Source: Fragilaria crotonensis
Lineage: Eukaryota; Bacillariophyta; Fragilariophyceae; Fragilariales; Fragilariaceae
Assembly: GCA_022925895.1 (NCBI GenBank)
Contig: JAKSYS010000315.1
Coordinates: 1-64,000 of the forward strand
Direction: 5' to 3'
DNA length: 64,000 nucleotides
In this document: positions 26,652 through 57,300 of the stretch, piece after piece
How the letters are laid out: each line of letters starts with the position of its first letter
How positions within the stretch are numbered: position 1 is the first letter of the stretch
The notes under the pieces: model-generated
Database searches by the model: none
Seen by the model: only the letters and a program-made list of their open reading frames with translations
Told to the model about the DNA's origin: nothing
Position numbers and translations under genes: made by a program

Positions 26652-28049
26652 GGTGGCGACGGGTAATTGCTTCCGCTGTGGTAGCTTTGATGACAAATGC
26701 TTTTAATCATTCCCGCACATTAATGATAACAAGTCAATGGTGGAATTTTGGACATCCACACGGCCGCAAATTGTGTGGTGTGAAGGAGTCTCCATTGTAT
26801 GCATTCCGAAGAGATGTAAAATGGCCAATAATATTTGAGTCTCTCTTAAACAGAGTGGTTGCCCCGACCCGCGACCATGTGATCCAACGGAGATTCGATA
26901 GGCGGTGGTCACAAAATTCAACTCAGCGAAAAAAAGGTTGAAACTTGTGTATCTTTTATTATATTGTATACGCATATGCAATATGCAAACCCTTACGCAC
27001 ACGCCACTCCGACGTCCAGTATTAACCCAAGCTGAGTATGGATTACGACAGATGTTTCATAGGATCCACTGAAAATACATTTTACACCTGGCACTCAAAA
27101 CTGATGATACACATGTTTCATGTCATAGAAAATGAGAGCACCTCATTTTTTCGAAGGGATCCTTGCGGCAGGAACAGGAAATGTAAAATGTGCAGAATAA
27201 GAGAACGACAATCCAACGATCCCCAACGAGAAAGCCGATAATTCCACCCTAGCGTTGACGCCACTCACCTTATCCAATAGTACTGGAGTACAGTGGCACA
27301 AATACTCAGGCTGATAAACTGATTCACGACAACAAACAACAAGAGGAGGCCGAAATCCACGTGTTTCTGAGCATACGATTGTTAGTCGTGCCGCAATTAA
27401 CAGTTTCTCTGTCGACCAACATTGGAGAGTTGGCTGGCAGATAGTGGAATGAATGCGCCAACAGCGGCGAAGGTCGAATGTAACGATGAGCATGATAGCC
27501 ACAGACTCGGCATTCCGCTTCAGATGATGCGCATGATAATGAGACCTTGTTGGTACAGCGTTTTTCCTGTAACTATTCCTATAAAGAAGTGGGGAATACA
27601 TGGCAGGGGAATGCGAGGTCTGACTCGCTTCCATCGCGAGATATGTTGTCATGGCAGGGGGATATAGAGGAATCGAAATTGTGGAAAACTCCCATTTGTT
27701 GTTCAGAGCACGCTTCGGGGGAAAGGTTTCTTGTCAGTCAGATAGAAGGTCTGGATGATGTGTGTGCAAATGATGGTGCAGTGAGTGTGATTTGAAGTGG
27801 TTTTCTTGTTTGATGTGACACTGACTTTAGTCATCGAGCCAGCACATATTGATGGAATTGCAGACTCAAACAAGGTGATGGCTTTGGCATACAATGACAA
27901 TGGCGTTGGCCAGCAATTGGATCACAAGGATCGGACTGCCATTATTCCAACCAGAAACTGGTACGTTTTACTGTGCCCGGGAGGTGGAAGAGCACAAGTT
28001 AGGAGATGTTACTGAACACACTCATACCTGTGGACATGGGCTGGTTGCA
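26652..28049. other. Flank of GH99-like copy 1, no gene seen
   Basis: Promoter side of copy 1, then sequence related to 30.3-31.2 kb. Short frames only. The part from about 27.66 to 28.05 kb is unique to this side and shows no gene. Confidence 0.4.
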
Positions 28050-28349
28050 AATAGTCTCCATGGTGGCGGGAAACTACAATAGCAAGCCCTTAATTCAAAT
28101 GAAATAGATGGTGGAAGAGAATGGCATTGGATTCTACAGAACCAATTTTGTCCTCGACCATGTTTGGACGTACTCTCTTTGGAGGGACAAATGGGATGTG
28201 GTTTAGACGAAGATTACAACTTTCGAATCGAAGTGCACTTCCATTTGTTCCATTCCATGGTGGATGTACTCGACGAAGTCCTCGAGAAGCAAGAGAAGAG
28301 CGAAAATCAATTGCCAGAGAAGCAGGTCAACAGCCCAGATGAACGCTAA
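28050..28349 (+). pseudogene. TTL-like gene remnant
   Basis: Begins with a piece matching codons about 17-30 of the gene at 23238 (GAAACTACAATAGCAAGCCC), jumps over roughly 1 kb, then continues with the C-terminal region: ATGGTGGAAGAGAATGG, the GGATGTGGTTTAGACGAAG block (GCGLDEDYNF) and VLDEVLEKQEKSENQLP. A further deletion of about 110 bp removes the tail before the shared end PDER. The ATP-grasp core is gone, so it cannot be an active ligase. Confidence 0.85.
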
Positions 28350-28973
28350 ATGAAACTGGATTGTCGTTGGCCTCCTGAGCCATGAAGTACTTAACGAAGT
28401 ATAATAATGGATGCATTCGATGAACAAGACAGATATCGAAACAGTGAGCACATTGCAAAGTCGAATTCATGTAGATTCCCTAGGCCGATAGGCGAACTGT
28501 ATTGCCCTAATGCTTTCGTGTTGACGATTCAGCTGCCATTACGTCCGAAGGCATTGTCGTCAAGACTGGATAATTCATGAGCGAGAAACCTTCGCAGGTA
28601 TTGCTGTTGGTGTGTTAGCACCCCCAGCGCACGCATTTGCTGCCGTTCAAACGATTCATGAACTAGGCCCTCCTGACCAGCTGGTCTTCCAGTATGCCAG
28701 ATGTAGAATTAGTAAGTCATGTAGGCTCGCATGGAAAGAAACGAGTCCAGCTCTAAGAGTCCACAACTACTGTTTCTCCACCGTTGTTTCTTCAAGAACA
28801 TTCTTGTCAAAGTACCGAGATGTGGCCTCCTGCTGATGAGGTTTAAAAGCTGCGGTTACTGGTCCCACAGTCACCATAGAAATCTATCCAAGGGTCCTAC
28901 TTCGTGAAAAAAATTGTGGATCCTTGGCTACGCAGCGACTCGCCATTGATGTAACAATTCCAATAAGCTCTAA
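28350..28973. other. Duplicated spacer, copy B
   Basis: Matches 24696-25319 with scattered differences. No gene seen. Confidence 0.5.
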
Positions 28974-30305
28974 TTAATGAATGTTATGAAGTGTGTCGAG
29001 ATACCTTCCGTAACGGGAGATACTTGCCCATTCCCGAGCCGATTCAACTGACGTTCCTTCTCCCCATTCGTTAAACGAAGTGATCAGCTGCCAATCTTCA
29101 TTGCTGCTCACCATCTGCAAAACATTCGCCCGCCAGTTTTGTTGACTCAATCGAGGCAATCTCGGTTTGGCCTCGTCTGCTCTCCAAAAGCCAGGTGACA
29201 CTGTAAACGAATATTCAGGTTGCCATGATACTGCCTTTGCAGGAGCATACTGATGCCAATGATCGGGCTGGACAGCACACTCCTTGTGTCCTGCAAAGAC
29301 TTTAAGAACGACGTACCACTCTCCTTTACTGGCGCTCTTCCAACGAGCAACCACCTCGCAGCCGCCTTCGTTGTAAACAAAAATTACTGGACGACCATCG
29401 ACATGACCATACGCCGAATGCCAAGCAAACCATTTCTTGAGATAAGTAAGATCGCGTCGGATTTCAACAACGGAAGGGTCCACAGAATATTCCTTCTCGT
29501 AATAGATTGCCCACTTCAGGTTGGAGTAGAGCGACTTATCCATCAGACTAGTTATCCTGGCTCGGTCAAGATGTTCATTACGACCCCACCAAGACGCGAT
29601 TGCCAAATCAACGTGAGCGTAATTAAGGGCATCGACATGAGCCGCCTGCGCACCAGCAGAGCCACTCGTGTACTTTCCGAGCGTTGGTTGATAAAAAACT
29701 GACTTTCCATTCACGCTCCATGTCTCAGGAAACCACGGGTAGTAGAACGCACCCCGAACCGGAAACACCAAGTTATCAGAAGATGGACCAAAATACCGAC
29801 TCCGAGGCAGTCCAGCGAACCAAATCAGTGTATTTTGATATAAGATAGAGACTATGCCCCGGTCGTCCAAAATTAGAACAGCACCAGGATGTTTGCTACT
29901 GAAGGTTTGCCAGATGACCTTATTGCTGGCACTCCGTGCCAACATGTTGCCGTCACCCTGCATCTTACAAGTGGCAGTATTATTCAAACCAGCGCGCCAG
30001 ATTACCTTGTTGTCGCTGGAACGCCTCAGCTGCAGGTCTCCGTCTTGATAAATACCGAAACGGAATCTTCCTGCCGGAGACGATACAATGTCGCCTCTTT
30101 TCATCGTTGTGTCTGGCTTTAACACAACTTTATAAAAGGGGTCAAAACGGTAGTCTCGCAATTGCCTTCTCGTCGGACTGCGAATAAGCTTTCGGGCGGC
30201 AGCTGGAGTTGATTGGCTTTCAGGATCTTGCTGTTGAGCGGTTGCTCTGGATCCGTCGAGGAGTACAACGAGAAAAACCACAATGGGCAAGACGACTCTG
30301 ATCAT
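28974..30305 (-). CDS. Secreted B-lectin + GH99-like glycoside hydrolase, copy 2
   Basis: 443 residues, the same length and architecture as copy 1: identical signal peptide, B-lectin with FGIYQDGDLQLRRSSDNKV and MQGDGNMLARSAS, GH99-like domain with GAFYYPWFPETW, AIASWWGRNEHLD, RPVIFVYNEGG and ITSFNEWGEGTSVE. Roughly 94% identical to copy 1; the changes cluster in the linker (RRQLRDYRFDPF) and on surface positions such as RLSQQNW, leaving every motif intact. Both copies therefore look functional. Confidence 0.85.
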   Translation of the reverse strand: MIRVVLPIVVFLVVLLDGSRATAQQQDPESQSTPAAARKLIRSPTRRQLRDYRFDPFYKVVLKPDTTMKRGDIVSSPAGRFRFGIYQDGDLQLRRSSDNKVIWRAGLNNTATCKMQGDGNMLARSASNKVIWQTFSSKHPGAVLILDDRGIVSILYQNTLIWFAGLPRSRYFGPSSDNLVFPVRGAFYYPWFPETWSVNGKSVFYQPTLGKYTSGSAGAQAAHVDALNYAHVDLAIASWWGRNEHLDRARITSLMDKSLYSNLKWAIYYEKEYSVDPSVVEIRRDLTYLKKWFAWHSAYGHVDGRPVIFVYNEGGCEVVARWKSASKGEWYVVLKVFAGHKECAVQPDHWHQYAPAKAVSWQPEYSFTVSPGFWRADEAKPRLPRLSQQNWRANVLQMVSSNEDWQLITSFNEWGEGTSVESAREWASISRYGRYLDTLHNIH

Positions 30306-31346
30306 GGTGGCGACGGGTAATTGCTTCCGCTGTGGTGGCTTTGACGAGGAATGATTATTTGCTTAATGCATTTCCGGAAGTTGATGATCGCAGTCCATGT
30401 GGAATTGTGGAGTAGTGAAATTTTCTTGTCCAGACGGCCGCAAATTGTGTGGTTTGAAGGAGTCTGCATGATATGTATGATACTGGACATGCATGCGTAA
30501 TGCGTATACCTCGGAGATGCAAAAGATGTGTCAGATATATATATATATATAACACGTATGTTGGTATCAGGCAGCATTTAAGGTGATCACAAAATTGACG
30601 CTATAAAATCCTTAATTGTACGCCTACGACATAGTCCACATGTGGCCGAAAACCAAATACTAATGATGCTATGAATACGAAGTGCATAAAGCAAATACTT
30701 AAACTCACACATAAGACTCGTGATACACACGTTAAATGACTTGTCGTTATACAGCCGGCGCGTCATTTATTCGAAGGGATCCCTGTATCTTAATAGCATT
30801 ATCAGCAAAGCTAAGGAAGCGCAGCAGGATATGAAATGAGTTGAATGAGCATCCAACGATTCCCATGGACCGAAGCCGATTATTCCACTGCAGTTTGGTC
30901 GCAACTCGCCTGATCCAGTACTAGAGTGCGGTGGTACTACTTCTCCACACATAAACTGATTCACCGCTACAAGCGCTGGCTCAAATGAATCAATCTCTGT
31001 CGAAAAACCTTGGGGAGCTGGCTGGCACTTAGTCGGATAGACCTTATCTACAAGGGCGAAGGTTGAATGTAACGACGAACATGACATCCCCAGGCTTAGC
31101 AGTGTTCATCAGTGTATATGCATGATAATGATATCTTGTTAGTATAGCTTTTGCCCTCGAACAAATGCCATATAGAAGCGGGGGAACGCGAGGTGCGAGT
31201 CACTTTTACAGCGACATATGTCTACACATACGTGAATTTCGGTAGCCTCTAAAAGACCTAAAGGCTATTGTGTTACTGTTAGGCGCCTCTCTGGTCGATG
31301 GCAAATAGAAACATGGAAGTATATATTCATCACGAAAAAAGTCTAA
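30306..31346. other. Flank between GH99-like copies 2 and 3
   Basis: The first 130 bases match the promoter side of copy 1. It includes a (TA)n tract at about 30535-30550. Sequence at 30.77-31.2 kb is related to 27.1-27.6 kb. No gene seen. Confidence 0.45.
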
Positions 31347-33512
31347 CTAGTGAATATCATTAAGAGCATCCAGATAAAACCCCAATCCTGATGTACTCGC
31401 CCATTCCTGCGCCGACTCAACGGCGGTGCCTTCACCCCATTCGTTGAACGTAGTAATCAGCTGCCAGTCTTCCTGGCTGTTGACCATCTTCAGAACATTA
31501 TCGCGCCAACTCTGTTCGCTCAATCTTGCTAAGGTTGGAGAATCTTTGTCTGCTCTCCAGAAGCCAGGTGACACAGTGAACGAATAACCTGGTTTGCTGA
31601 CAACAGCAGCAGCAGGACCGTACTGATGCCAGTGATCTGGCTGGACGGGGCAATCTTGGTGTCCCACAAAAAGTTTAAGGACGACGTACCATTCGCCGTT
31701 GCTGGCACTCTTCCAACGAGAAGCCACCTCACATGCACCTTCATTGTAAACAAAAATTACTGGACGACCATCAATGTGACTCCATGCATCATGCCAAGCG
31801 TACCATTTTTTGAGATAGTCAAGATCGGCGCGGATTTGTGCAACCGACGGATTTGTAAATAGTTCCTGCTCGTGGTAGACTGCCCATTTGACATTGGTGC
31901 CGCGCGACTTGTCCAGCAAATTGGTTATACGTGCTCGTTCGAGTTGCTGATCAGGACCCCACCAAGATGCAATCGCCAAATCAACATGGGCGTAATCAAG
32001 GGCACCAACATGAGCTGCCTGTACGGCAGGGTAGCCAATGCTGTATTTTCCGAGGGTTGGTCGATAGAAAACGGGCTTTCCGTTAACACTCCAAGTCTCC
32101 GGATACCAAGGGTAGTAGAACGCACCACGAACTGGAAACACCAAGTTCGCAGACGACGGTCCTGAATACTGACCCCGAGGCTGTCCAGCCAGCCAGAGTG
32201 CCGAACTTCTGCTCACTATAGCAACTTGCCCTCCGTCGTCCAAAATCAAAACAGCACCAGGATTGTTGCCGGTATGGGATTGCCAGTTGACCTGTTTATC
32301 TGTGCGCTTTGTCACCATATTTCCGTCACTCTGCATGAAGCAGTTAGCCGCATCATTCATTCCAGCGCGCCAGATCACTTCGTTGTTGCTGGAACGCACC
32401 AACTGCAAGTCGCCGTTCTGGTACAAACCGAATTGGTATTGTCCCGATGGAGACGAGACGACACGGCCTATAGTCATGGATGCGCTTGAGGACAACACAA
32501 CGGAAAACGGGAACGACCGAGCAACTGGTGCTAGTGTAGATAATGCAGTGGGCCTGCGTGTAGGTCCTGGAGTACGTCCTGGAGTGGGCTTGGAAGTAGG
32601 CTGATGAGTCGGACGGGGAGTCGGTCCTGGTGTCGGCTTAGAAGTAGGCTGACGAGTCGGACTGCGAGTAGGTCCTGGTGAAGGCTTTCGAGTAGGTTGA
32701 CGCGTCGGACCGGTCGTAGGTCGTGGTGTAAGTCTTGGAGTCGGCTGACGAGTCGGACTACGAGTAGGTCCTAGGGTGGGTTTGTAAGTTGGTTGAAGTG
32801 TCGAACCTCGAGTTGGTCCCATTGTTGGGAATCCTGAACGATTTAGCGTCGGCACTGAAGTAGTGGGGGGTGACGAAGGTTGAACACCAGTTCGACGGGT
32901 CGGAGCAGGTACACGCCCCTTCATCGACGTTGCAAGCGTTCGAACCGTAGAGGCCACAGCGCTCGTCGGGTGAAACAACTGTGGAGGTGGGACAGTGGGA
33001 ATATCATAAGGCCCGCTTGACGTCGGTGAGAGTCCCAACTGCTGGCTGCGCAGAGCAATCCAATCAATGCATGGCCCGCGACTAAGACCGGCAGTTAGAC
33101 GAATTGTGTGACGACCCGACATGGTCGGAATGACAATCGACTCACGGCTCCATGTCATCCAATCCTTCGTCTTGTTCATCTTTAGGGTATCAATCAGTTT
33201 CCCATCAATCATCACGTCGACGGGATAGTCGGATTTTCCAGCGGAGTAACTTACAACTAATTCCACCACATTTGTAGGTTCATCAATCGCGAACTCAATC
33301 CACGATCCGTGAGCCTCAAAGTCGACAAAAGTAGCACCCTTCACATCACTTCCTCCATTGCGAAGCTTGCATTGATTCGACCTAGCAGCGGCGGCACTGT
33401 AGTACGTAGCAGTCGCATTGCGGTGGAAATTCGCGGCAGATGATGGCACGAGCACGGTGGCAACAATTCCGAAGGAAAAGAGTACATGGACCATGGTCGA
33501 CAATCTCTTCAT
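31347..33512 (-). CDS. Secreted CBM + PT linker + B-lectin + GH99-like protein
   Basis: 721 residues from ATG 33512; an ATG six codons on (MVHVLFSFGIVATVLV) would also begin a signal peptide. Order: signal peptide; a CBM6/35-like beta-sandwich of about 130 residues with VDFEAHGSWIEFAI, VVELVVSYSAG, SGRHTIRLTAG and CIDWIAL; a linker of about 130 residues rich in PT units (QPTYKPTLGPTRSPTRQP); a B-lectin domain with FGLYQNGDLQLVRSSNNEV and FMQSDGNM; a GH99-like domain with GAFYYPWYPETW, AIASWWGPDQQ, RPVIFVYNEGACE and ITTFNEWGEGTAVE. PT linkers are typical of diatom surface and wall proteins and are probably O-glycosylated. It is related to the two neighbouring copies but much more diverged, so it is an older duplicate or the fused ancestor. 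Confidence 0.85.
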   Translation of the reverse strand: MKRLSTMVHVLFSFGIVATVLVPSSAANFHRNATATYYSAAAARSNQCKLRNGGSDVKGATFVDFEAHGSWIEFAIDEPTNVVELVVSYSAGKSDYPVDVMIDGKLIDTLKMNKTKDWMTWSRESIVIPTMSGRHTIRLTAGLSRGPCIDWIALRSQQLGLSPTSSGPYDIPTVPPPQLFHPTSAVASTVRTLATSMKGRVPAPTRRTGVQPSSPPTTSVPTLNRSGFPTMGPTRGSTLQPTYKPTLGPTRSPTRQPTPRLTPRPTTGPTRQPTRKPSPGPTRSPTRQPTSKPTPGPTPRPTHQPTSKPTPGRTPGPTRRPTALSTLAPVARSFPFSVVLSSSASMTIGRVVSSPSGQYQFGLYQNGDLQLVRSSNNEVIWRAGMNDAANCFMQSDGNMVTKRTDKQVNWQSHTGNNPGAVLILDDGGQVAIVSRSSALWLAGQPRGQYSGPSSANLVFPVRGAFYYPWYPETWSVNGKPVFYRPTLGKYSIGYPAVQAAHVGALDYAHVDLAIASWWGPDQQLERARITNLLDKSRGTNVKWAVYHEQELFTNPSVAQIRADLDYLKKWYAWHDAWSHIDGRPVIFVYNEGACEVASRWKSASNGEWYVVLKLFVGHQDCPVQPDHWHQYGPAAAVVSKPGYSFTVSPGFWRADKDSPTLARLSEQSWRDNVLKMVNSQEDWQLITTFNEWGEGTAVESAQEWASTSGLGFYLDALNDIH
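32540..32830 (-). repeat. Coding PT-rich short tandem repeat
   Basis: Degenerate units encoding RxPTxxPTxGPT, seen on the + strand as repeated CGACTCGTAGG/GGTCC words. It forms the flexible linker of the third GH99-like protein. Such arrays are prone to length change. Confidence 0.7.
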
Positions 33513-34367
33513 TTGCAAGCAATCCTCTGTATTCGAAACCAATATTGTCCGATTTGTGAGAGTGTTAGTAACCTTTCATTGATCAACTTAGTCTTTCCGC
33601 GACTGACCCGATCAACTTTCGACCTCAACTCTTCAAAAGGGCGTATCATTTTTGGCAATGAAATAAGTGCATCACATGGGATGCGAAAAGATTGTTTCGA
33701 AATTAGAAATAGTCTCTAGCAAAGCCTCATAAACAGCGTTGGCGATGCCGTCAAAAAATGATGTGACGGGAATTCGATTCTTGTCAGTCACATGTCACTG
33801 TATCACATAGCAGGATTGACACGAAATTTACAACCCCGGAACCCACAAAACGTCGATGGAGAGCAAGCCACTTATAACTTATTCCATCCACACCTTTGCA
33901 CATGCCACCGAATTTTCGAATTGAGGTGCTGCTCGCGCGAGAGACCACACAGCGTCCAGTGACTCAAGAGCACCACGTTGAATACGTAACAAGTCCGCCA
34001 CTGAAGTATAGGTCAATGTCGGAGAATTCAGGGGTTACCAGAAAGTGGGACTTTCCAGTGATCTGACCGCGGAGTTTCCAAATGTGGCCAAGAGGCGAGT
34101 CCGACAATCGCTGGGGGATCAACTACGAGGGCATTTTTGTGCTTGTTGTCGCAACTTAGCAGCGGAAGGAAAATCCTTCACAAGACCGATTCCCAGGTAT
34201 GCTGACGTATCACTGTAGTGCGTTCAACAGTGCTGGCTTTCACACCAGGGAGAAGCAGAACCCTCAGCAGCCCCAACCGGTAGGCGATTCGGTTCCGTCA
34301 AGTAGCCACATTCTCTCCCAAGGGAAATACTGATATCGAAAAAAGGCAATAGGGCTATTACCAGAAC
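33513..34367. other. Promoter side of the CBM-GH99 gene, no gene seen
   Basis: 855 bp between the GH99-like start and the 3' end of the next leftward gene. No convincing frame or RNA. Confidence 0.4.
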
Positions 34368-38761: not shown

Positions 38762-38783
38762 CATACCAATAGCGACCAGAGGC
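38762..38783 (+). repeat. Left terminal inverted repeat (candidate)
   Basis: CATACCAATAGCGACCAG then AGGC; 20 of 22 bases match the reverse complement of 44070-44091. Confidence 0.6.
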
Positions 38784-38866
38784 GGTTTTTGTAGAATTGC
38801 GCGCTCTGTAACGGTCGCGAACACCTCTAAGTAAAAAAGATTGTATGTAACTAGACTTGCGAATGG

Positions 38867-38974
38867 TTTTGCACCCAGATGAGTTGACTACCTGAGAATT
38901 TACATGGTGCATCCTTGATTGGTAAGGATCCCCCACCTAAATTTTGAGGTAGTCAACTTGTCTGGGTGCAAAAG
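38867..38974. repeat. 108-base imperfect palindrome / hairpin
   Basis: Left arm TTTTGCACCCAGA..GAGTTGACTACCT pairs with right arm AGGTAGTCAACTTG..TCTGGGTGCAAAA; only a few mismatches over about 35 pairs. The centre contains a smaller stem ATCCTT...AAGGAT. It could be a subterminal transposase-binding structure, a nested MITE or a small-RNA hairpin. Confidence 0.75.
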
Positions 38975-39227
38975 TAGGTTTTAGGCTTCAAGTGGTTAGG
39001 TCATAATATTCCGACGAAAATGTCCGGCTCAAAACCTGATAGAGTCGTGCAATCAACGTGAAGGTCATTCCATAATTTTCACGGTTGGAGTAAAAAGATC
39101 TCGTCGCTTCCGCATCATCCCTCGGACGAGGTCATTGAATTTGAAGTGTGTGATCTCCTCCCCACTCGCATCCTGCGCCTATTATAATTCCATCCTGACT
39201 TCTCAGCAATCGGCAGACGAAACAGGA

Positions 39228-42200
39228 ATGGTTCGAACGCGATCCGGGAATGAAGTCTTCCATTCGGAAGCATCATACGGTCGTGCAGCAAGGACCGAGT
39301 CAGCACGGCAACGAAAGAAGAGGAAGACTGGATGTGCCGAGAACAAAACAACTACATCTTGCGGCTTGACAACACCGATGGGGGTACTGACAAGACAAGC
39401 AACATCTCAAATGGATGAAGACAAATCATTACTGCTGGCAACTCCACCAAGTGCTTCAATCAGGGCTGGACCTACCCCATCACCCAAGACCGATCAACTT
39501 CTACGAGCTACGACTGCGATGAGGAAACCGAGGTGTACAGATTTTGGAACGGCGAGGCGTTTTGCCTTCCAGGGGCAAGGGTATTTCTTTTGTAGCTCAT
39601 GTGATTTATGGGATGCTCTTCCTGCTGATACCAACAAGAAAGTTTCGATGGACTCGCTCATGTTTGGTTGTAAGGCAAATCACAAGTACTTTTCACACCC
39701 AACAGCACTCCGAAACGACGACTGTTACATCCGGCGAAAGGGGACAGCAGTGTTGGCCCCCGCACCCTCCTCAACACATGTATGTCCTACTATAGTAGTA
39801 GACAACATGCTTCTCGATGATGCAATTGAGTCAGAGGAGGAATCGAATTGTTCATCAAGTGCTACTACTCCTACTAGAAGTTCTGATGTACTAAGAAATG
39901 TCTGTCATGACAATGATGTGGACGAGATCAGCACTAGTACTAACAACAATCAACCACTGATGGACGATGGTTCTGGAGTGGCTGACAATTTCATCATTCC
40001 CGGGTCTGTGACATGCTCTGATCCCGATGATACTAGATCCCCACTGCTTCTTCGAGCTCTGGTGGAGCAACTTAAAGGGAAGCTGGCATTGCTCAAGGAA
40101 CGGAATCGTCGACTCCTCATCGAGAATAAGAAACTAAGAAATGATGCAAGATTGAAGGAGCGGAATGATCGTCAAGCAGGTCCAACAATAACCACCATGC
40201 CTCCACCTCCAGTCGTAATGAATTATTTACGAAGGATGTTCTGGAAGCAGTGAATGGTGTCTTAGGTAGGTACCGACGCTGGGGTGACAATGGAGTGGGC
40301 CAGCTTGTAGCAAAAGTAGTTTGGAGTCAAGACAAGTTTCTTCCACATTTGCTTCGGAAAGCCCGCAAGCACTTCAGAGATAATATATTCACACCCTATA
40401 ACATTCTTCGAGCGATGGACCTTGCTGGAGGTACTCTGTCCTACGAAGGAATCGACATCTTGAGACGTGTGGAGACGGGTGGAGTCAAGCGATTCCGGGG
40501 TTCTATGATCCCATCAAAGTCAGAGTTGAAGCGAATGGCTGGTGCAGTGGAATGGTATGCACGAGAACAGTGTCCATTCCAATCACAACAGACGTCAACA
40601 GGTGAGTCAGTGGAGTTCAACTATCCAAAATCGATGATGTGCATTGCACAAGCATTCCATTTGGATGAGATTGGAAAATCACGGAGCTTGTCAGTTGCTT
40701 CCTCGATTGATGGGGCATCCCTTTCCAAGAATCTCTCTATAATTGCAGGTGGTATAAAAGTAACTGACCGAGCAGCTCGATGCCCAATCACAAACAGACC
40801 ACTTCTTGACAACCCGACTACAATGAGTGCTCAATCCCGTAATCTGTGCATTCCATTGAAGATCATGATGGGGCGAGAGACTAAGGAAACCTTCACTGAA
40901 TTTGGTTCTCTATTCAAGTTTGTGGATGATATGGCAGATGAGGCGACACTTCCAACCGAGATGACAGGATTCATTCCATTCACGTGTATGACTAATTGCG
41001 ACTTGTCAGCACAGTGGAAGGGCTTATGCAAGGGTGGTGCCGCAAAAGTACATACACTGCCTTGCCCTGGATGCGCCACCGAGTCTGACTATCTGGCCAC
41101 TCCAAATGCAAGTCCTTGCACTCGATGGTGCATGGATCATTCAACAGATCCCGATTGGATGTGCTTTCACAAGCAAATGGCAACTCCAGAGAGAGTTGAA
41201 ACAATGCGGGCGGAGGTAACAGAGCTGGTCTCTACATTAGAGACGGCCCTTGTAGAGATACTTGAGGAGTCCCGAATGACTCGCAGTGATGTAGAAACAG
41301 ATACTCCAGCAGAAAGTTCAAGGAATGATACCACCTCGATACACTTTTGTCCTCAGAATTTAAGCCAGAGCCAATCATATGCACATTTGCTTACGAACGA
41401 GTTGATACTGAGAGAGCTTAATATCAATGGCACCTTGGAAACGAGACGAGGGCGTTTGCATCTAGCTCTTCGAGATGAAGCTACAATTGCAAGACTCTCA
41501 AAAGAGATCTCGCATGGCGAAGTTAAGGAAGGTGCATACTTTCTCTTGATGAACACGCTCCCCTGCGTCCTGCACATGGAGAATCGCAACGGTATCAAAA
41601 TCCTTACTATGTTGTTGATTGAAGGCCTGTCAAACGCAAAGAAAAAGTTGCTGTACATCGAGGTGAAAGCCGAGGGCAAGAGAGTTTCTCGTTTCGTATC
41701 TGATATAGAAAATCTTATCAATAGGTCAATCCTCGGAACTTGCGAAGATCCTTGCCAATGGATGTGCCCGTTTGACTTCAAGAAAAAAGAGATTGGTCCA
41801 ATCACGATGGATAACGTTAGAACACGGCGTGTTGTTGATGCTCTTGATGTTATTGTGGATGCGTTTGTCACTGACGATGCTCGCAAACAGTTATGGATGA
41901 CAGCCCTTAACAACTACAGGATATCAATGGTCCTCCTTCGACAGAAGGACGACTTCACAAACGAAACAATTGCATCGTATCAGTGTCATGCTGATAAATT
42001 CTTCCAGGCGTGGGTTCGCTTATGGCAGAAGGAAGGGATTACGAACTATTTTCACATGATAGGATCTGGTCACGTTGCCGATTATCTTTATAAGTGGAAA
42101 AACCTATATCGGTTCTCACAACAAGGCTGGGAAGCGATGAACTCGCTAATCAAGACTTTCTTCTTTAGAAGAACAAACCATGGTGGCGGGGTTAGGGGAG

Positions 42201-42367
42201 CAAGCAAAAAGTCTCGACTGATTCCCATCGCTCGGTGGCTGCAACGACGAATGGTGTTTCTGTGTCGCATAGATGAAGAAACGATTTGTCGGTACATAGC
42301 CGATCATCCGATGCCAGACGGTTTCCGAACACAAGCATTATTGCGAGACGATGACGTCTACGAGTAA
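39228..42367 (+). CDS. Putative transposase of the two-gene element
   Basis: About 1,045 codons from ATG 39228 (MVRTRSGNEVF), with one frame change in the 40140-40205 interval. First part: basic and Ser/Thr-rich, with a metal-binding-like module YFFCSSCDLWDALPAD...FGCKANHKYFSH and a coiled coil LLRALVEQLKGKLALLKERN. Second part, 705 codons: VLGRYRRWGDNGVGQLVAK, FTPYNILRAMDLAGGTLSYE, a cysteine/histidine cluster (CMTNCDLSAQWKGLCKGG, LPCPGCATESDY, CTRWCMDH), then NYFHMIGSGHVADYLYKWKN and GWEAMNSLIKTFFFRRTNH. The last block recurs, in my memory, in multi-copy proteins of protists and invertebrates, which suggests a mobile gene; relation to the KDZ (Kyakuja-Dileera-Zisupton) group is possible but unproven. 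Confidence 0.55.
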
Positions 42368-42390
42368 TAGAAATAAGAGTAAGATGGAAA

Positions 42391-43891
42391 TCATCCATGA
42401 AGTCTTAGTTCAATTAACTCCTTCGCTGTTTGAAGGTCGAAAGACTTCTCTAAACCAAACATGGTGTTGTTACGTTGTGGATAGAAGCACCGAGACCGAA
42501 CCTGAGTTGCATCTACATTAACCACTCGATAAAGACAACCATCACTGTCCTCAAACTCACTCCCCTGTATGATCATCGAGCAATCATCCTCTGATGATTG
42601 GAGTTCACCGACAGCAAAGGGATCGCGTCGACAAATCAACGCGAACAGCAGTGGGTCACATTCTGCAACAACAAGATGATTTGCAGAATAAGTATATCTC
42701 CTGTATCGGATGGTGACAAATAGTTTGCTGCAGCCATCAAATTCAAGATCAATCCCATCGCGAACAGTCTTGGAGTTGAATACAGGTTCTTGAGCATCAG
42801 AACCACAAACGACATTAATGATGTCGTTCTGCCACAGACCCTTCGGTGCTGATATCTTGGGCAAGCGACATCGTTGCCCTGCAGTCACTGATTCTCCGAA
42901 CACATAGCACAGTCTTCGTAGATGAGCCTTTGTTTCAAACCTGAGAATTGTGCAGTTCTTGCTTACTTGAGCAGCCTTTACCACCAACCCACTCTCGGTA
43001 ACTCGATGACGGCGAATTCTTGTTGATGTTCCGCTAGCAGCATTATTAAATAAATCATGAAATTGCCATCGGAGAAATCCCCACGTCTCGGCTGTGAAAT
43101 TAGACACCCTGCAACTTTCTTTTCCGTAGAGGCCCTGCAGATGCGAATATCGACCTACTAGAAGCTTCGACATCTCCAGTTTGATGCATATCACACTGTT
43201 CCAAATGCGACTCGGAAAGCAATCATGGTACCTTGAGCATGTGTAGCTTGACGGGAAGGGAAGACAGTGTCCATCGGGCACATCAATCAGCATCGATTTC
43301 TCTGTCCCCTGTTGGAACCTGTATCTTACGATGAAGGCGATTGCCATACCTTGACAGGTGTAGAACAAATTGCAGGCATCTTTGAGGACAACATGGCTGA
43401 AGACGAAGGCCAAGTTCACGATATCATTGCATGAAATAACCCGAAGCTCCGCCATCTGGACAATCTCAGGTAGATGTCGCAGATGGTTGTCATCCAACAG
43501 GATACAAAATACCATCCATCGAATCGAATTCTGCTAACCGCTTGAAGACATTCACTTGAACGGTCAAAGGTCTTGTTGGCATGGTGTTGCTTGTGGCTAC
43601 GATGCCAACAATCCTTGCAACCACACCATTATGCACATTGCTTCCTGATGTGCCAGTCACGTCGGGTGCGAGAAGCACAAATGTACCTGGGAGTAGATCA
43701 GCCTTCAGTTGTTTGGAATAACAGGCAAAAAATGGAGGCCCTTCATCCCAATGTGGCTCAACACCTTCCCAAAATGCCGAATTGACCATCAGAGCAACGC
43801 AATCGAATCGAATGGCTTGGTTGAGGGAGTGATTGTTGATAGTTATGTCAGAGCTATTCAGTGTGAATAGCACGACGTGGCTGGTCGACAA
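42391..43891 (-). CDS. Second gene of the two-gene element, unknown function
   Basis: About 500 codons from ATG 43891 (MSTSHVVLFTLNSSD), with one frame change near 43500. The N-terminal part has ADLLPGTFVLLAPDVTG and NGVVARIVGIVATSN, a pattern faintly like a BAH- or SH3-type chromatin domain. The rest includes LPEIVQMAELRVISCNDIVN, AETWGFLRWQFHDLFNNAAS, RHRVTESGLVVKAAQ and CYVFGESVTAGQRCRLP. It looks like a real protein by length and composition, but I recognise no family. Its stop is 23 bp from that of the transposase-like gene, so the two converge inside one element. Confidence 0.5.
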
Positions 43892-44438
43892 GAAAAGCGG
43901 TTAAAAATCTTGAAGTATTTTACTTACATAGAGGCTGTTATGGTACGTTAAAGCATAAATACAAAAACGGTTTCGTCTCCGTAAAGACGACACCGAGATG
44001 TATACAGAGCCATAGATGTACGATCGAGTCATTTATGAAATGGTCGAGACATCGTCAAAAGTCATGAAGGCCTCTGGTCGCTATTGCTTTGGGACTCCGG
44101 TGAGCCGACGGAGAATCTCGTCGATGATTCGCTGTCAGCACGTCGCCCTTTTTTTGACAAAATTATGTCACGAGTGAAGGCATCACAGATGAACACACGA
44201 ACCTTTTCGTGTTCGTAAATGACAGCCGATCCGTCCGAGCATCAATTTTTGTCACAAATTGACTTCGATTGAATCTCGAAGCAATCACCAGCCGAGAAAA
44301 GGAAAAGCTGGCCTATCTTTCACAATCGACGACTTGGGTTGGTACCGGCGTTGTTTTCCTTCTCCTTTTGTCAGGAATCTACCTCTTCCATTCCACGCCT
44401 GCGGAACTCAGCAGTAGTACGTAATTGAAAAGTGCACC
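43892..44438. other. Right end of the element and leader of the first S51 gene
   Basis: Contains the right inverted repeat (44070-44091), a hairpin ACACGAA..TTCGTGT at about 44195, and a 53-codon frame without ATG (44263-44424) that reads a basic helix and a membrane segment, WVGTGVVFLLLLSGIYLFHS, ending 14 bp before the S51 start codon. The last may be a relic exon. Confidence 0.35.
44070..44091 (-). repeat. Right terminal inverted repeat (candidate)
   Basis: GCCTCTGGTCGCTATTG followed by CTTTG; reverse complement of the left repeat with two mismatches. Confidence 0.6.
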
Positions 44439-45512
44439 ATGCCAAGAACTTTCAAAGCCCCTCCGAATCTCAAGGGTTTGTTCGCTGGATCTGGATCCGA
44501 CGGACTCAATGAACCTCAGTTAACAAGCGCCATTCTTGATCTCGTCGGGGACAAGGCACATCCCAACATCCTGTATTTGGGAACCGCTACCTATGACTTG
44601 CCGGGACCCCGACTCCGGCAGACCGAACGGTTCCTCGAGGCCGGTTGCACTGTCACGTCCTTGGATGTTGTGACCGAGACGTCAACGATGCAGAGCGGCT
44701 GGAAAAGCTTTGTTGACGCCGGTTGCACGGTCCGTTCCTTGGATATCGTCTCCAGCGCACCAGGTGATATGGCTGCGGCCATGGAAACTGCCGACGTAGT
44801 GGTTGTGAGTGGCGGGAACACCCTCTACGCCGTTGATCGATTTAAACGATTGGGACTTCATGAGCTGCTCAGAAGCGCCATGAATCGGGGAGTTGTTCTG
44901 ACGGGAGGGAGCGCTGGGGCCATTTGTTGGTTCGACGGCGGTCACTCGGATAGCATGGATCCTGACTCATTCAAACCCGTCATGTTGGCTGAAGCCGACC
45001 ATGGGGGAGACGAAAGTAGCGCCGCGCCGACAAACGACCAAGACAGGAAGCCATGGGAATACATTCGTGTTGATGGTCTAGGCTTCCTGCCAGGGATCGT
45101 CTGTCCTCATCATGACAAGATACAAAGCAACGGGGTCTTGCGCGCAATCGACTTTGACGTCATGCTTTTGGACCACCCAAGCGAAGTAGGTATTGGAATT
45201 GATCACTGGGCTGCGCTTGAAGTGAATCAAGGTCGGTTTAGGGTGGTCTCTCTCGAAGGAAAGGAAGGTTCGGTCCTTCCTGACAAAACGTTTTCGCCTG
45301 AGAGAAAAGGCGTCCCAGGCGTATGGCTCAAGGAAGTCCGCGACGATGGCCGTGTGCATTCTAGGCTCTGTCCCGAAAGCGGCTTTATATCCGATTTGAT
45401 CCGAGTCCCAGTTGAGATCAATCACGACCCTCGTGTCGAAGTTTGCCGGGAACTTAACCCAGATGATGCCCCGGCGCATGTGCTGTTGAGCGCTGTGATG
45501 GGGAGCGTTTAG
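44439..45512 (+). CDS. S51-family serine peptidase (peptidase E / cyanophycinase-like), copy 1
   Basis: 357 residues. S51 enzymes are serine peptidases with a nucleophile elbow and act on Asp-containing dipeptides or cyanophycin-like peptides. Marks: KGLFAGSGSDGLNEPQL, NILYLGTATYDLPGPR, VVVSGGNTLYAVDRF, the nucleophile in TGGSAGAICWFDGG, CPHHDKIQSNGVLRA with candidate histidines, and GIDHWAALEV. No signal peptide, so probably cytosolic. Odd: EAGCTVTSLDVV is followed 26 residues later by DAGCTVRSLDIV, an in-frame duplication of one strand-helix unit that the neighbouring copy lacks. The ATG at 44439 aligns with the MAGNPF start of copy 2. Confidence 0.88.
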   Translation: MPRTFKAPPNLKGLFAGSGSDGLNEPQLTSAILDLVGDKAHPNILYLGTATYDLPGPRLRQTERFLEAGCTVTSLDVVTETSTMQSGWKSFVDAGCTVRSLDIVSSAPGDMAAAMETADVVVVSGGNTLYAVDRFKRLGLHELLRSAMNRGVVLTGGSAGAICWFDGGHSDSMDPDSFKPVMLAEADHGGDESSAAPTNDQDRKPWEYIRVDGLGFLPGIVCPHHDKIQSNGVLRAIDFDVMLLDHPSEVGIGIDHWAALEVNQGRFRVVSLEGKEGSVLPDKTFSPERKGVPGVWLKEVRDDGRVHSRLCPESGFISDLIRVPVEINHDPRVEVCRELNPDDAPAHVLLSAVMGSV

Positions 45513-46916
45513 TTTGTGGCTAAACCCAGATTCTCGGTACCTGTTTTGTTGAGCGGCTGGGGTTGGTATTCAGTTTGCTGGCTGAATCCAGGATCAAAGT
45601 CTTCGACTTAGAAGGTCCCCTTAGAGTATGTAGAAAGCAAATTATAGAAATATCTCCTATAGACAATTGCTGCGATGTTATTGTTATCCAAGGAGCCCGC
45701 TTAAGGAATCTGGCGGGATCGATTCTGCCGCATCGTCTGCTGGACTGTCCTTTCGACAGGGCTCGCTGGCTAGCGGCATCCTGAATTTGCTATGTTCATT
45801 GTAGTTGTGAGCTAGAACTGAAGACTTCTTCCATCAACAGTTTTAAAAAATCCTTGGCATATCCCATGCCCCATGGTGTTAATAGCATTGCCTATTGCCA
45901 ATAAATGAGGGAAATCCGCAGTCTAAACTCGTTTAAAACATGACGACCATGGATTCATGGTGTATTGAGTAAGTGTTACGGTTTTGTGGACCATACGACT
46001 AGTACACCAAAAAGGTAGACAAATGGCTACCAGTAGTATCGATTACATACCGTACTACTGGTTCACGACTAACGGTAGTACTTATCATAGAGGTGTTTTG
46101 GGTTTTGGGCGGGTCGAGTGCACAGTGTGCACTGCACAATGCACACTGCAAGGCGAATTCAGCGACGGAATGGACGGCGAGCCTGCAAGTACTAGTACTA
46201 GTACTAGTACCGTGATAGAAGAAGTGCGAATGTGTCAGTACAGTACTGTATCGGTAAACGGTACAAGTACTGAACAATCAAAGGAAGATTTTGTGTCAAT
46301 TGCTTGCATCTCGTGAATCGTCCCTTTCTTGCCAGCTGTTGTTATCATACACCGTGAGACATGGATTTTCCGATCACATGACGGAAGTTCAACATGAAAC
46401 TTCTCCACCATGCGAGGAACAAAAATCGAAGTACGAGTGACGCACTTAAGAGAACAGGTGCACGGCCGTTACATTGGTAGGGGTTTCGGTATACATTGAT
46501 GATGATGTTATCAACAATCTATCGCGATTTCCTTCCAGGGATGCGTGCTCGGGAATGGTCACGAATGCAGGTCGGAGTACCCACACACACAATTTCAACA
46601 CCAACTGCAGTGATCAAAATAAATTTCGTGTAATTTCTTTTCGACACGATCGGTGCCTCCCCAATTTGGTGTCATAAAAACGTGTCTCCTGCATCAATGC
46701 AACACATCTTCCCAAGACCAACCACGCTCATAATACAAAGGCTAGAGGCATTAAGGGAAGATGCGTTTGCTTGGCAACCATGAATACGAAGGGGCTCCTC
46801 AAACCCTCTGTCGATCTCGATCGGACCCATCGCTTCCTGCGTTTGAGTTGTTGAAAGGCGACACACTTGATACGCCCACGTGCGTGGAGTTTAAACGTTT
46901 GACGCGTCACAAGACC
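45513..46916. other. Spacer between the two S51 genes
   Basis: 1.4 kb with no gene supported. It contains an ACTAGTACTAGTACTAGTAC tract at about 46190-46210 and a GTGCACAGTGTGCACTGCAC palindromic stretch near 46119. In the second half an in-frame ATG at 46761 lies upstream of copy 2. Confidence 0.4.
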
Positions 46917-47885
46917 ATGGCTGGAAACCCATTCTCCTTTGATGCACCACCTAAAATGAAGGGATTGTTTGTCGGATCTGGATCGGACGGCCTCAACGAA
47001 CCGTGGATGACTCGTGCCATTCTGGACCTGATCGAAGACAAGGACAAGACACCCAATGTGTTGTACTTGGGAACGGCAACCTATGATTTGCCAGGACCTC
47101 GCCAACGTCAAACACATTGCTTTGTTGAAGCCGGGTGCGAAGTGACATCGTTGGATGTCACTTTTAGCGTCCCTGATGATATGGCCCTCAAGGTTGAAGT
47201 TGCCGATGTCATTGTTGTCAGCGGAGGGAACACTCTTTACGCAGTCGACCGTTGGAAGCACATTGGCTTGCATGACCTTCTCCGTAGAGCAATGCATCGA
47301 GGAGCGGTGCTCACGGGAGGCAGCGCTGGTGGGATCTGTTGGTTTGACGGCGGTCATTCCGATTGTATGGACCCTTCCACTTTCAAGGAAGCCATGCTCG
47401 CGGCCGCCGACAAGGAAGGAGACGAAAGCAGCGATGCCCCGCTCTGTGCTAAGGATAAGCAATCTTGGGAGTACGTTCGCGTTGACGCTTTGGCCTTCTT
47501 GCCCGGACTTGTGTGCCCTCATCACGACAAGAAACAAAGCAACGGGGTCTTGCGTGCGAACAGTTTCGACGCGATGCTCCTGGCGCATCCAAACGAATTT
47601 GGGATCGGAATTGATCACTGGGCTGCTCTGGAACTCCACAATGGTCATTTCAGGGTTCTATCTGTGGAAGGAAAGGAAGGTTCTGTTCTCCCAGACGGTA
47701 CCTTCTCGCCAGATCGAGCTGGAGTTCCTGGCATCTGGCTCAAAAAGGTTCAGGATGACGGGCGCGTCCATGCTATGCTATGTCCCCAGAGTGGGAAGAT
47801 AAGTGACTTGCTCCGCATCCCTTCCAGGATTGATCATGATCCACGTGTCGACGAATGCCGTCGACTCAACCCTCCAGCACACTAG
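46917..47885 (+). CDS. S51-family serine peptidase, copy 2
   Basis: 322 residues from ATG 46917, chosen because the protein then aligns with copy 1; an in-frame ATG at 46761 would add 52 poorly protein-like residues. Same motifs: KGLFVGSGSDGLNEPWM, NVLYLGTATYDLPGPRQR, VVSGGNTLYAVDRW, nucleophile in TGGSAGGICWFDGG, CPHHDKKQSNGVLRAN, IGIDHWAALEL. It carries the normal single EAGCEVTSLDV unit. The pair is a tandem duplication, diverged enough to be old, with both copies intact. Confidence 0.88.
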   Translation: MAGNPFSFDAPPKMKGLFVGSGSDGLNEPWMTRAILDLIEDKDKTPNVLYLGTATYDLPGPRQRQTHCFVEAGCEVTSLDVTFSVPDDMALKVEVADVIVVSGGNTLYAVDRWKHIGLHDLLRRAMHRGAVLTGGSAGGICWFDGGHSDCMDPSTFKEAMLAAADKEGDESSDAPLCAKDKQSWEYVRVDALAFLPGLVCPHHDKKQSNGVLRANSFDAMLLAHPNEFGIGIDHWAALELHNGHFRVLSVEGKEGSVLPDGTFSPDRAGVPGIWLKKVQDDGRVHAMLCPQSGKISDLLRIPSRIDHDPRVDECRRLNPPAH

Positions 47886-54396: not shown

Positions 54397-57300
54397 CGTT
54401 TTTAAAACGGTTAGTTCGAAAGTGAATCAAGATGAGCGGCGAAGGTAAGAAGGCACTGGAGACTATCAAGGTCATTCCATTTTATGGAACGGATACTTCG
54501 AAGGGCGGACTTGAACCGAGGAGTTCTTTACGAAGGCGGAGGTCTTTGCGGCTACAAGAGGTTTCAAGAAGGCAATGTTGGAAGAGAAGATCAAGGAAGA
54601 GTTTGCTTTCAAGGAAGACTTGACGGAAGAAGAACAGTTGTTGGTCAAGCAAGATGAAGACGCAAAACATTTTCTGATCATGTCCTGTCGTGGCGATGCG
54701 TTTGCGATTATTGAGTCTCAGGAAACCGCATTCAAGATGTATCAAGCTTTGAAGAATAGGTATGATTCAAAGAAGACAAAGGATTTGGTCAAGGCGACGA
54801 CAAAATTGGAGAAATGCTTCATGAAACATGACTTTGATGACCCTTACATATGGATTTTGGAAATGGAACGTTTGAATCGCGATGTCGAGAAGTGCGAGAA
54901 CGGAATCAAGAGGAGCGATGAGCAAATGCAGGCGACTATTTTGTCGAGACTTCCAAAAAGACGCTATGAATCAGTCATCACATCTCTAAATGGAAAGATC
55001 GGATCGAACGACTTCACGTATGATGATTTTGTGTCGGAAATTTATGTTCACTATGAAATGTTCATTGAACCCTACAAAAACAGGTTTGCAGAACAGACAA
55101 AGGGTAAGCATTTAGCGCTCAACACTGTTTCTGGCAAGGGTGGATGGAAGGCATTCAAAGGAAAGTGTAATAAATGTGGCAAACAAGGCCACAAAGCTCG
55201 AGACTGCAACAGTACAGGTGAGAATAAAAACGCAAATTTAGGCAAAAAGTTCACAGGAAAATGTTTCAAGTGCGGAGACATGGGACACATGGCAAGAGAT
55301 TGCAAGAAGGTTGGATCTACTGCGGAAAATGGTATGTTTGTCGGAATGTCCATTGCAGGTCGTGGTAAGACGGTATATGAAGACAGTTTGAAAAAGGACC
55401 AAGCAACGGTTGATATGAACAAGGTCGCGATGAAAAACTTGGGAGACATTGCAGAGGCAAATAAGACCAAGGTCAGTACAGAAGAGAGTAAGAAAAACAG
55501 TGAAACGGACATTGAGGGAAGCCCTAAGAAAAGCATTGAAGAAGTTGATGTTGAAGATAACTCGTTTGCGAAGAGACGCAAAATCGACGAAATTAAGGAG
55601 AAGGAGCAGAGAATGTCCTGGTATGATATGTGCGCGACAAGTAACGAAGAAGAAGAAGAAGATGATGATGATGATCCGGAATTAGAAGAAAAGAATGAAG
55701 ACTCGGAGGTTGAAGTGTTTGAAGTAATTGACTTAACTGCAAGTGAGGTTGACTTAACGGAAAGTGATGACGAAGAGGTCGAAGAGATTGTTAAGAAACC
55801 CGAGAAGAAGAATGACCCCGATTTGTTTAATGAGAATGAGAAGACAGAGCAGACACGAATGAAGAGAGGCTTGTTTTATGAAACCGACGAAGAGGAAGAC
55901 ACAGACCAAACTGAGTACTCAGAGGAGCACGGACAGTATGGTAATGTCGTAAATGGCGAATTTTATATTTACTCTGGGAGTACATGCAGCACAAGCGTAG
56001 AAAGAGGTACAGAAATTATTGTCAATGAGACCAATGAAAAAGAAAGGAATGACACTAAAGACATGGAGAAAGACGCTGAAGACATAAAAGAAAAAGATAT
56101 GGAAAGTACTGGAAAGATGGGTGCACTGGATATTTCGGACAAAGATATGGAACAAAACCACGATATGCAAAAAGAAGAACAAGTGTACATGGTTTTCAGA
56201 GCTCAGCGTGAAACTAAACTTGAATTTCCCAAGTGGAGAAGTAAGGAAAGAGACAAGAAAGAGAGTTGGTTGATGGATTCCGGCGCAACAACTCATGTGG
56301 CTACTAACTCCAAGATGATGACGAACGTAAGGACCGCAATGAATGGTCAATTTGTGCGTGTCGGCAACAATGCTACCATGCAAGCAACTGCAATTGGTGA
56401 CCTCACTTTGATGCAGGGAGGAACCAACAAGAAAATGTTTCTCAAAGATGTAATGGTTGTTCCGAACTTTGCAAAGAACCTGATCAGCGTAGGACGATTG
56501 ACAGATCATGGAAACGCTTTTGCGACGGATAAGACTGGTGCAAGGTTGACAAACGAGAACGGAGACGTATTGAATTTTGAGAAAGGAACTGATGGAATGT
56601 TTTATTTCTTTGCAACACGCGTTAAAGAAGGAAAAGAGGTAAACAATGTTGAAGGAAGTAATGAGAAAGGTTCAGAAACAAAGAAGAAAATGAGAAAAGA
56701 GATGGACATCAATGAAGCCCACCGCAAATTTGGGCATGCAACTGAGAAAGTGGTTCGAGAAATGTTGAAAACGTTGGACATTGAACCTGTGGGACAAATC
56801 AAGACATGTGACGGATGCTCGCGTGCAAAGGCTACTCAAAAGCGGACTAAAAGGTCACAACTGTTACTGCAGACAAACCCGCGGAACGTTTATTCATGGA
56901 TACGAGCGGACCGTACAGTGAAACAGCCGCAGGAAATCGATATTGGTTTAAGCTGGTTGATGACAAAACCCGCAAGTCATGGGACTTTTATGGTGCTAGG
57001 AAGAGTCAATTGAAGAATGTCTTAAAGACTTATTGGACAAATTACGCGCAGCGGACTATACAGGTTAAGTTCATACGGTGCGACAACGCCGGTGAACACA
57101 TTGCTGATCTGAAGAAAATGTGCGAAGGGGAGTATGGTATCGTATTGGAGTATACTGCCCCACATACTCCCCAGCACAACGGAGTCGTGGAACGAATGTT
57201 TGCTCGAGATGCCAAACGAGCTTTGGCAATGATGTTGTCTGCCGGTTGGACAAAGACGATGCAGTCCAAACTTTGGGCAGAGGCAACCAAGACTGCTGCA

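Follow-up and report, generated by a model that had tools for sequence, protein, structure and literature searches.

A multicopy two-gene DNA transposon of the diatom Fragilaria crotonensis with a one-base-pair target site duplication

The DNA analysed here carries, at positions 38767–44086, a copy of a DNA transposon that is present many times in the genome of Fragilaria crotonensis and whose insertion duplicates a single base pair of the target. The window is the whole stretch of 64,000 nucleotides that was analysed (contig JAKSYS010000315.1, positions 1 to 64,000 of the forward strand). Two diverged families, A and B, have the same layout: between terminal inverted repeats, a gene of about 470–510 codons (gene 2) faces a transposase gene of about 1,030–1,150 codons. 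The window copy belongs to family A and has the following parts.

38766, no strand: the left C of the 1-bp target site duplication
38767–44086, no strand: whole transposon copy, family A, 5,320 bp, with inverted ends common to many copies
38767–38783, + strand: left terminal inverted repeat, CAATAGCGACCAGAGGC
38867–38973, no strand: subterminal hairpin, two 50-nt arms that are 84% complementary
39228–40250, + strand: N-terminal part of the transposase gene, with a zinc-binding-like motif and a coiled-coil-like stretch
40169–42364, + strand: catalytic part of the transposase gene, its key residues invariant in 9/9 aligned proteins
40709–40711 and 41000–41002: codons of the two key D residues
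41063–41074: codons of the C(2)C pair
42053–42055 and 42071–42073: codons of the two key H residues
42131–42133: codon of the last E
42394–43532, − strand: C-terminal ORF of gene 2, a frameshifted copy whose relatives are single frames
43493–43891, − strand: N-terminal ORF of gene 2, same frameshifted copy
44070–44086, − strand: right terminal inverted repeat, an inverted copy of CAATAGCGACCAGAGGC
44087, no strand: the right C of the 1-bp target site duplication

The sequence-only reading had pointed to an exact 17-base inverted pair at 38767–38783 (+) and 44070–44086 (−), and these positions are confirmed. The two sites are the only matches to the 17-mer in the window at up to three mismatches, while shuffled windows have a mean of 0.15 matches and 0/100 reach two, in keeping with the earlier judgement that such a pair is unlikely to arise by chance. 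Its extension of the match to 20 of 22 bases does not hold. The extra outer bases are flank, because other copies and empty sites stop at CAATAG..CTATTG, and the element ends at 38767 and 44086. The two convergent genes it described are real, but they are not intact in the window, where one frameshift splits each of them; the transposase frame breaks within the ORF overlap at 40169–40250. A programmed frameshift was considered, but the single frames of several other copies tell against it. The copy at C282, which is without the last 56 bp, is 99.1% identical to the window copy over 5.27 kb and its transposase is likewise split; going by this identity, the two copies parted recently. The start of the subterminal hairpin, TTTTGCACCCAG..GAGTT, is also present in miniature copies of about 220 bp, within part of their arms. 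Rfam models at gathering thresholds give no match in the 64-kb window.

The neighbourhood of the window copy includes a chlorophyll-binding protein gene, three adjoining genes with glycosyl hydrolase family 99 matches, one of them also with a CBM_6 match (25323–33575, −), and Copia-type retrotransposon genes with Pol_BBD and RVT_2 (54515–59346, +, and 61121–63229, −). Tandem peptidase S51 genes lie at 44439–45512 and 46761–47885, the transposon end being about 350 bp upstream of the first. Elsewhere in the assembly, on contig C881, a 66-residue fragment of the RuBisCO large subunit has as its best PDB matches, among 11 listed, the chains 6ftl, 5oya, 5n9z, 5mz2 and 7yk5; these are diatom enzymes, and together with the chlorophyll-binding protein gene they agree with a diatom host.

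Many copies in the genome share the ends and both genes, which bears out the proposal that this stretch is a DNA transposon. Family A elements start with CAATAGCGACCA and have the form CAATAG..CTATTG, while family B elements start with CACTA(G/C)AGACCATT and have the form CACTA(G/C)..(C/G)TAGTG; one family B copy (C273:101358–106885) has a perfect 37-bp inverted repeat. Mutants at a single end are few (C35, C644 and C421, for example). Across the 62.1-Mb assembly, the 17-mer has 66 matches at up to two mismatches, against 12 for a reversed control, and the 12-mer core CAATAGCGACCA has 88, against 12 for its control. A 17-mer that proved to be a common dispersed word would have spoken against the transposon, but it is no random dispersed word. 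The core forms 29 neighbouring pairs within 12 kb, and every one of them is + then −, with none in another orientation. For family B, the 14-mer CACTASAGACCATT has 91 matches in the assembly and none in the control; it forms 32 neighbouring + then − pairs within 12 kb, 24 of 0.3–1.7 kb and eight of 5.5–5.9 kb, and five neighbours are in another orientation, three of these clustered on C613.

Paired ends of family A fall into several lengths, the short ones being 105–140 bp (4), 213–228 bp (8) and 1.9 kb (3), and the long ones 2.9 kb (2), 5.0–5.7 kb (9) and 7.9–10.2 kb (3), so that miniature derivatives accompany the full-length elements. The three 1.9-kb elements lie at C386:35588, C548:387233 and C877:566. 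The 2.9-kb elements (C76:102397–105297 and C38:80020–82916) are 99.9% identical to each other; C76 has gene 2 as an uninterrupted frame, whereas in C38 it is split.

In the genome, at least 74 stretches match the transposase ORF and at least 71 match gene 2; these lower bounds count stretches rather than elements. Identity to the window protein is about 60–98% in the better family A copies and lower in decayed ones. The longest matches of family B to the window transposase are 35–38% identical, with gene 2 in the same convergent place. Single transposase frames of 1029–1149 codons occur in both families (C38, C361, C690 and C1 in A; C120, C150, C273 and C233 in B), and gene 2 is a single frame of roughly 470–510 codons in several copies. 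The sequence-only reading had also named, as a finding that would refute it, transposase copies that lack these ends or the convergent partner, and it withstands this check. Other copies have both, in the two diverged families, and copies without one gene or one end were found as well, as expected of a transposon family. One and the same family B insertion is present at C26:21581–27500 and at C233:26974–32898; the 5,075 bases that were compared are 99.6% identical, and the assembly has probably retained two haplotypes here. No relatives were found in the viral contigs searched.

The one-base duplication is seen in the bases that flank the elements. Counting only copies for which both flanks are available, the outer flanking bases are identical in 38 of 45 insertions (18/20 in family A and 20/25 in family B). 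The first set of 25 insertions leaves out C233, the haplotype of C26, as well as C548:321401 and C679, which duplicate C336 and C323. In 22 of the 25 the same base stands just outside both ends, against a shuffle mean of 6.5, and none of 100,000 shuffles is as high; the matching base is C in seven, A in six, T in five and G in four. No insertion of this set has an exact match over 2–8 bp at the ends (0/25), and duplications of 2–12 bp at offsets 0–11 gave no convincing signal. A further 20 family B insertions match at the outer base in 16 cases (shuffle mean 6.9; 2/100,000 as high), and two of the 20 match over two bases. These 20 and four of the first set come from the 32 paired family B elements, while C421, also in the first set, lies outside the 32. 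The outer bases differ in seven of the 45 insertions, perhaps through mutation or recombination of these copies; the element end itself is changed in two of them (C35 and C421). A base carried in from the donor site would match only about a quarter of the time, and therefore 38 matches in 45 represent a true one-base duplication.

Related empty sites lead to the same result. When the joined outer flanks of 25 elements were searched against the same genome, they matched many related unoccupied places; 40 of 206 candidates were scored and 20 were aligned. Exactly one base is missing at the junction in 11 of these 20, with no other gap within 20 bases; the 11 clean sites belong to four family A insertions (C38:96490, C361, C274 and the miniature copy C221) and none comes from family B. 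Six more lack one base at or beside the junction and have another gap, a shifted gap or a substitution close by (L108 for C361, L105 for C716, L112 for C58, and L113, L115 and L116 for the family B insertion C273), and three alignments (L107, L111 and L117) are ambiguous. No empty site was found for the window insertion itself. Because the flanking bases match and the related empty sites are without one junction base, insertion of the element duplicates one base pair. Among 5.39 million open-licence papers, none on a transposon with one-base duplications was found; with Pfam, the PDB and such papers as the basis of comparison, the earlier label 'undescribed' is provisional, and the element may already be described in Repbase.

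The transposase has an invariant series, D-D-C(2)C-H(5)H-E, in all nine aligned proteins from both families. Its conserved blocks are DGA.L, then D(L/M)..QW..L..GGAAK followed by C..C, then NY.HM....H, and finally QQGWEA. The spacings are nearly constant in 10 of 11 frames, the eleventh being a fragment: 92–97 residues from the first D to the second, 21 from the second D to the first C, six from H to H and 20 from the second H to the E. An N-terminal FC..CD....C...H motif, which looks zinc-binding, is found in 7/11 related frames. The transposase is under purifying selection (dN/dS 0.09–0.35 in 7/28 estimable pairs). From the order of its conserved residues it appears to be a DDE enzyme.

Searches with this protein gave little. 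Pfam returned no credible family for the nine transposases, the best of 15 weak matches being a coiled-coil model at 0.006. A profile compared with the PDB gave no transposase match, only ten weak ones, all within the first 260 of 959 profile positions, the best of them a mitoribosomal protein (E 0.01). Single-sequence AlphaFold2 models of the window transposase and gene 2 parts, with mean pLDDT of 33.4 and 33.6, are unusable.

These results bear on the strongest alternative, which is that the element is a divergent lineage within a described superfamily (EnSpm/CACTA, Plavaka, ESTA or Lanisha) that Repbase may already list, and that the short duplication is a quirk of the lineage. The 5'-CA..TG-3' ends, the CACTA at the start of family B, the C(2)C...H..H motif and the annotation of EnSpm-class elements in a diatom genome (Cyclotella cryptica; PMC7466962, in the part of that paper available to us) all favour it. 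It has to be set against the lack of a Pfam match in all nine transposases, none of which matches Transposase_21 (PF02992), and against the duplications of 2–5 bp reported for lineages of the CMCT clade (CACTA/Mirage/Chapaev/Transib; PMC12730594). A search of the genome with PF02992 also gave no match, though the controls were likewise without one. We regard this alternative as a serious one, somewhat short of an even chance. Since EnSpm-class elements are annotated in C. cryptica, relatives of the present element may sit unrecognised in such diatom sets.

Gene 2 adjoins the transposase gene and faces it in both families. It is under purifying selection, with dN/dS of 0.115–0.186 in 13 of 14 estimable family A pairs, 0.56 in the one remaining, nearly identical pair, and 0.22 and 0.39 in two pairs compared with family B; dS is saturated in 20 of 36 pairs and nearly so in most others. 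Distances between transposases follow those between gene 2 proteins closely in family A (r 0.91; 2/720 permutations as high) and weakly in family B (r 0.52; 64/720). Because the trees of the two genes disagree in family B (C120, C150, C273 and C421), where the transposase pairs C120 with C150 and gene 2 pairs C150 with C273, copies of this family seem to have exchanged halves.

Gene 2 has no credible match in Pfam (eight members) or in the PDB. The earlier suggestion of a regulator or chromatin-acting factor gained no support from Pfam, the PDB or one profile comparison, none of which gave a match, and it may still hold. A BAH/Tudor barrel, read by eye at the N-terminus of gene 2, was backed by no test: the BAH profile matched none of eight gene 2 proteins and four fragments, and hhalign of gene 2 with one host BAH protein aligned nothing in the BAH region. 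A search of the open-licence literature for BAH together with transposons found nothing.

Gene 2 could instead be a passenger, or a silencing suppressor that aids spread and is dispensable for transposition. Both 2.9-kb elements carry gene 2 with no transposase match among those listed, and the discordant family B trees look as if halves had been exchanged, as such a reading would have it. Its constant place in both families and the purifying selection on it speak for a role in the element, and we lean against the passenger reading while taking it as a real possibility.

The reading that we prefer, and hold to be probable, is a cut-and-paste transposon that uses a large DDE transposase akin to RAG1 and the CACTA and Transib enzymes, joins with a one-base stagger and has gene 2 as an accessory protein. 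The transposase would consist of an N-terminal zinc-binding-like motif and a coiled coil, followed by an RNase H-like core into which a long zinc-containing stretch is inserted. This enzyme would bind the 5'-CA..TG-3' ends and excise the element; joining to the target with a one-base stagger, followed by repair, would then leave the 1-bp duplication. The multiple copies, their ends, the two genes in both families, the 1-bp duplication and the purifying selection on both proteins are observed, and the DDE chemistry, the cut-and-paste mode and the role of gene 2 are inferred from them. The gene 2 protein most likely acts together with this enzyme at subterminal DNA or chromatin, an accessory role comparable to that of TnpA of En/Spm. 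In family A, conserved subterminal stretches such as GTAACGGTCGCGAACACC, towards the transposase end of the element, and CTCGACCATTT, towards the opposite end, are candidate binding sites.

An enzyme that is not of the DDE type, such as another recombinase or one with a single-strand mechanism that leaves a one-base footprint, would fit the unusual duplication length and the want of a usable fold model; it is improbable, given the invariant D-D-C(2)C-H-H-E series with RAG1-like spacing and the inverted ends with a true target duplication, which are typical of staggered DDE joining. A chance inverted match around two unrelated genes is refuted by the window shuffles, by the large number of copies that share these ends and genes and by the empty sites.

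The length of the duplication reflects the distance between the cuts that a transposase makes in the strands of its target, and it is among the main criteria by which eukaryotic DNA transposons are classified. To make a one-base stagger, as seen in both diverged families and their miniature copies, an enzyme would need a tighter target geometry than that reported for RAG1, CACTA and Transib enzymes. Such elements would escape annotation tools that demand a duplication of at least two bases. With its conserved second protein, the element offers a compact system in which to ask what accessory proteins do in such transposons. For a eukaryotic cut-and-paste element, 1 bp would be the shortest real target duplication known to us.

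Transib elements duplicate 5 bp, Spy elements make no target duplication and En/Spm (CACTA) elements encode two proteins each. The present element shares with Spy a very short target footprint, one base being duplicated here and none in Spy. It resembles En/Spm in its two proteins per element and its conserved subterminal stretches; of its ends, those of family B begin with CACTA and those of family A with CAATA. It differs from En/Spm in that its genes face each other, in having no Transposase_21 match and in its 1-bp duplication. Zisupton (KDZ) is described with an 8-bp duplication in the available part of PMC12730594, while none of 25 insertions here matches over 8 bp.

The CMCT clade, as described in the same part of that source, includes EnSpm/CACTA, Mirage, Chapaev, Transib, Plavaka, ESTA and Lanisha; its termini are 5'-CA..TG-3' in most cases, its transposases have C(2)C and H(3-4)H between the second D and the last E, and its lineages are reported with 2–5 bp target duplications (PMC12730594). 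Both families described here have the same termini, and their two acidic residues, C(2)C, histidine pair and last E come in the same order. They differ in the 1-bp duplication, in H(5)H (10/11 frames), which is one residue longer, and in the convergent second gene of an unmatched family, and no sequence match for the transposase was found in Pfam or the PDB. Mouse RAG1, whose residues are given in the available part of PMC4914335 as D600, D708, C727/C730, H937/H942 and E962, is close in spacing: the second D and the first C are 21 residues apart here and 19 in RAG1, the two H residues six and five, and the second H and the E 20 in both. Unlike RAG1 and Transib, the transposase has no sequence match in the PDB or Pfam. 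The element thus appears to work like a CMCT transposon, and it is not filed as a member because the 2–5 bp duplication reported for the clade was looked for and a 1-bp duplication was found. We put at about even the chance that it represents a new two-protein lineage at superfamily level, in which a DDE transposase joins the ends to target strands one base pair apart, placing it between the CACTA/Transib/RAG1 clade with its 2–5 bp duplications and the elements that make no duplication.
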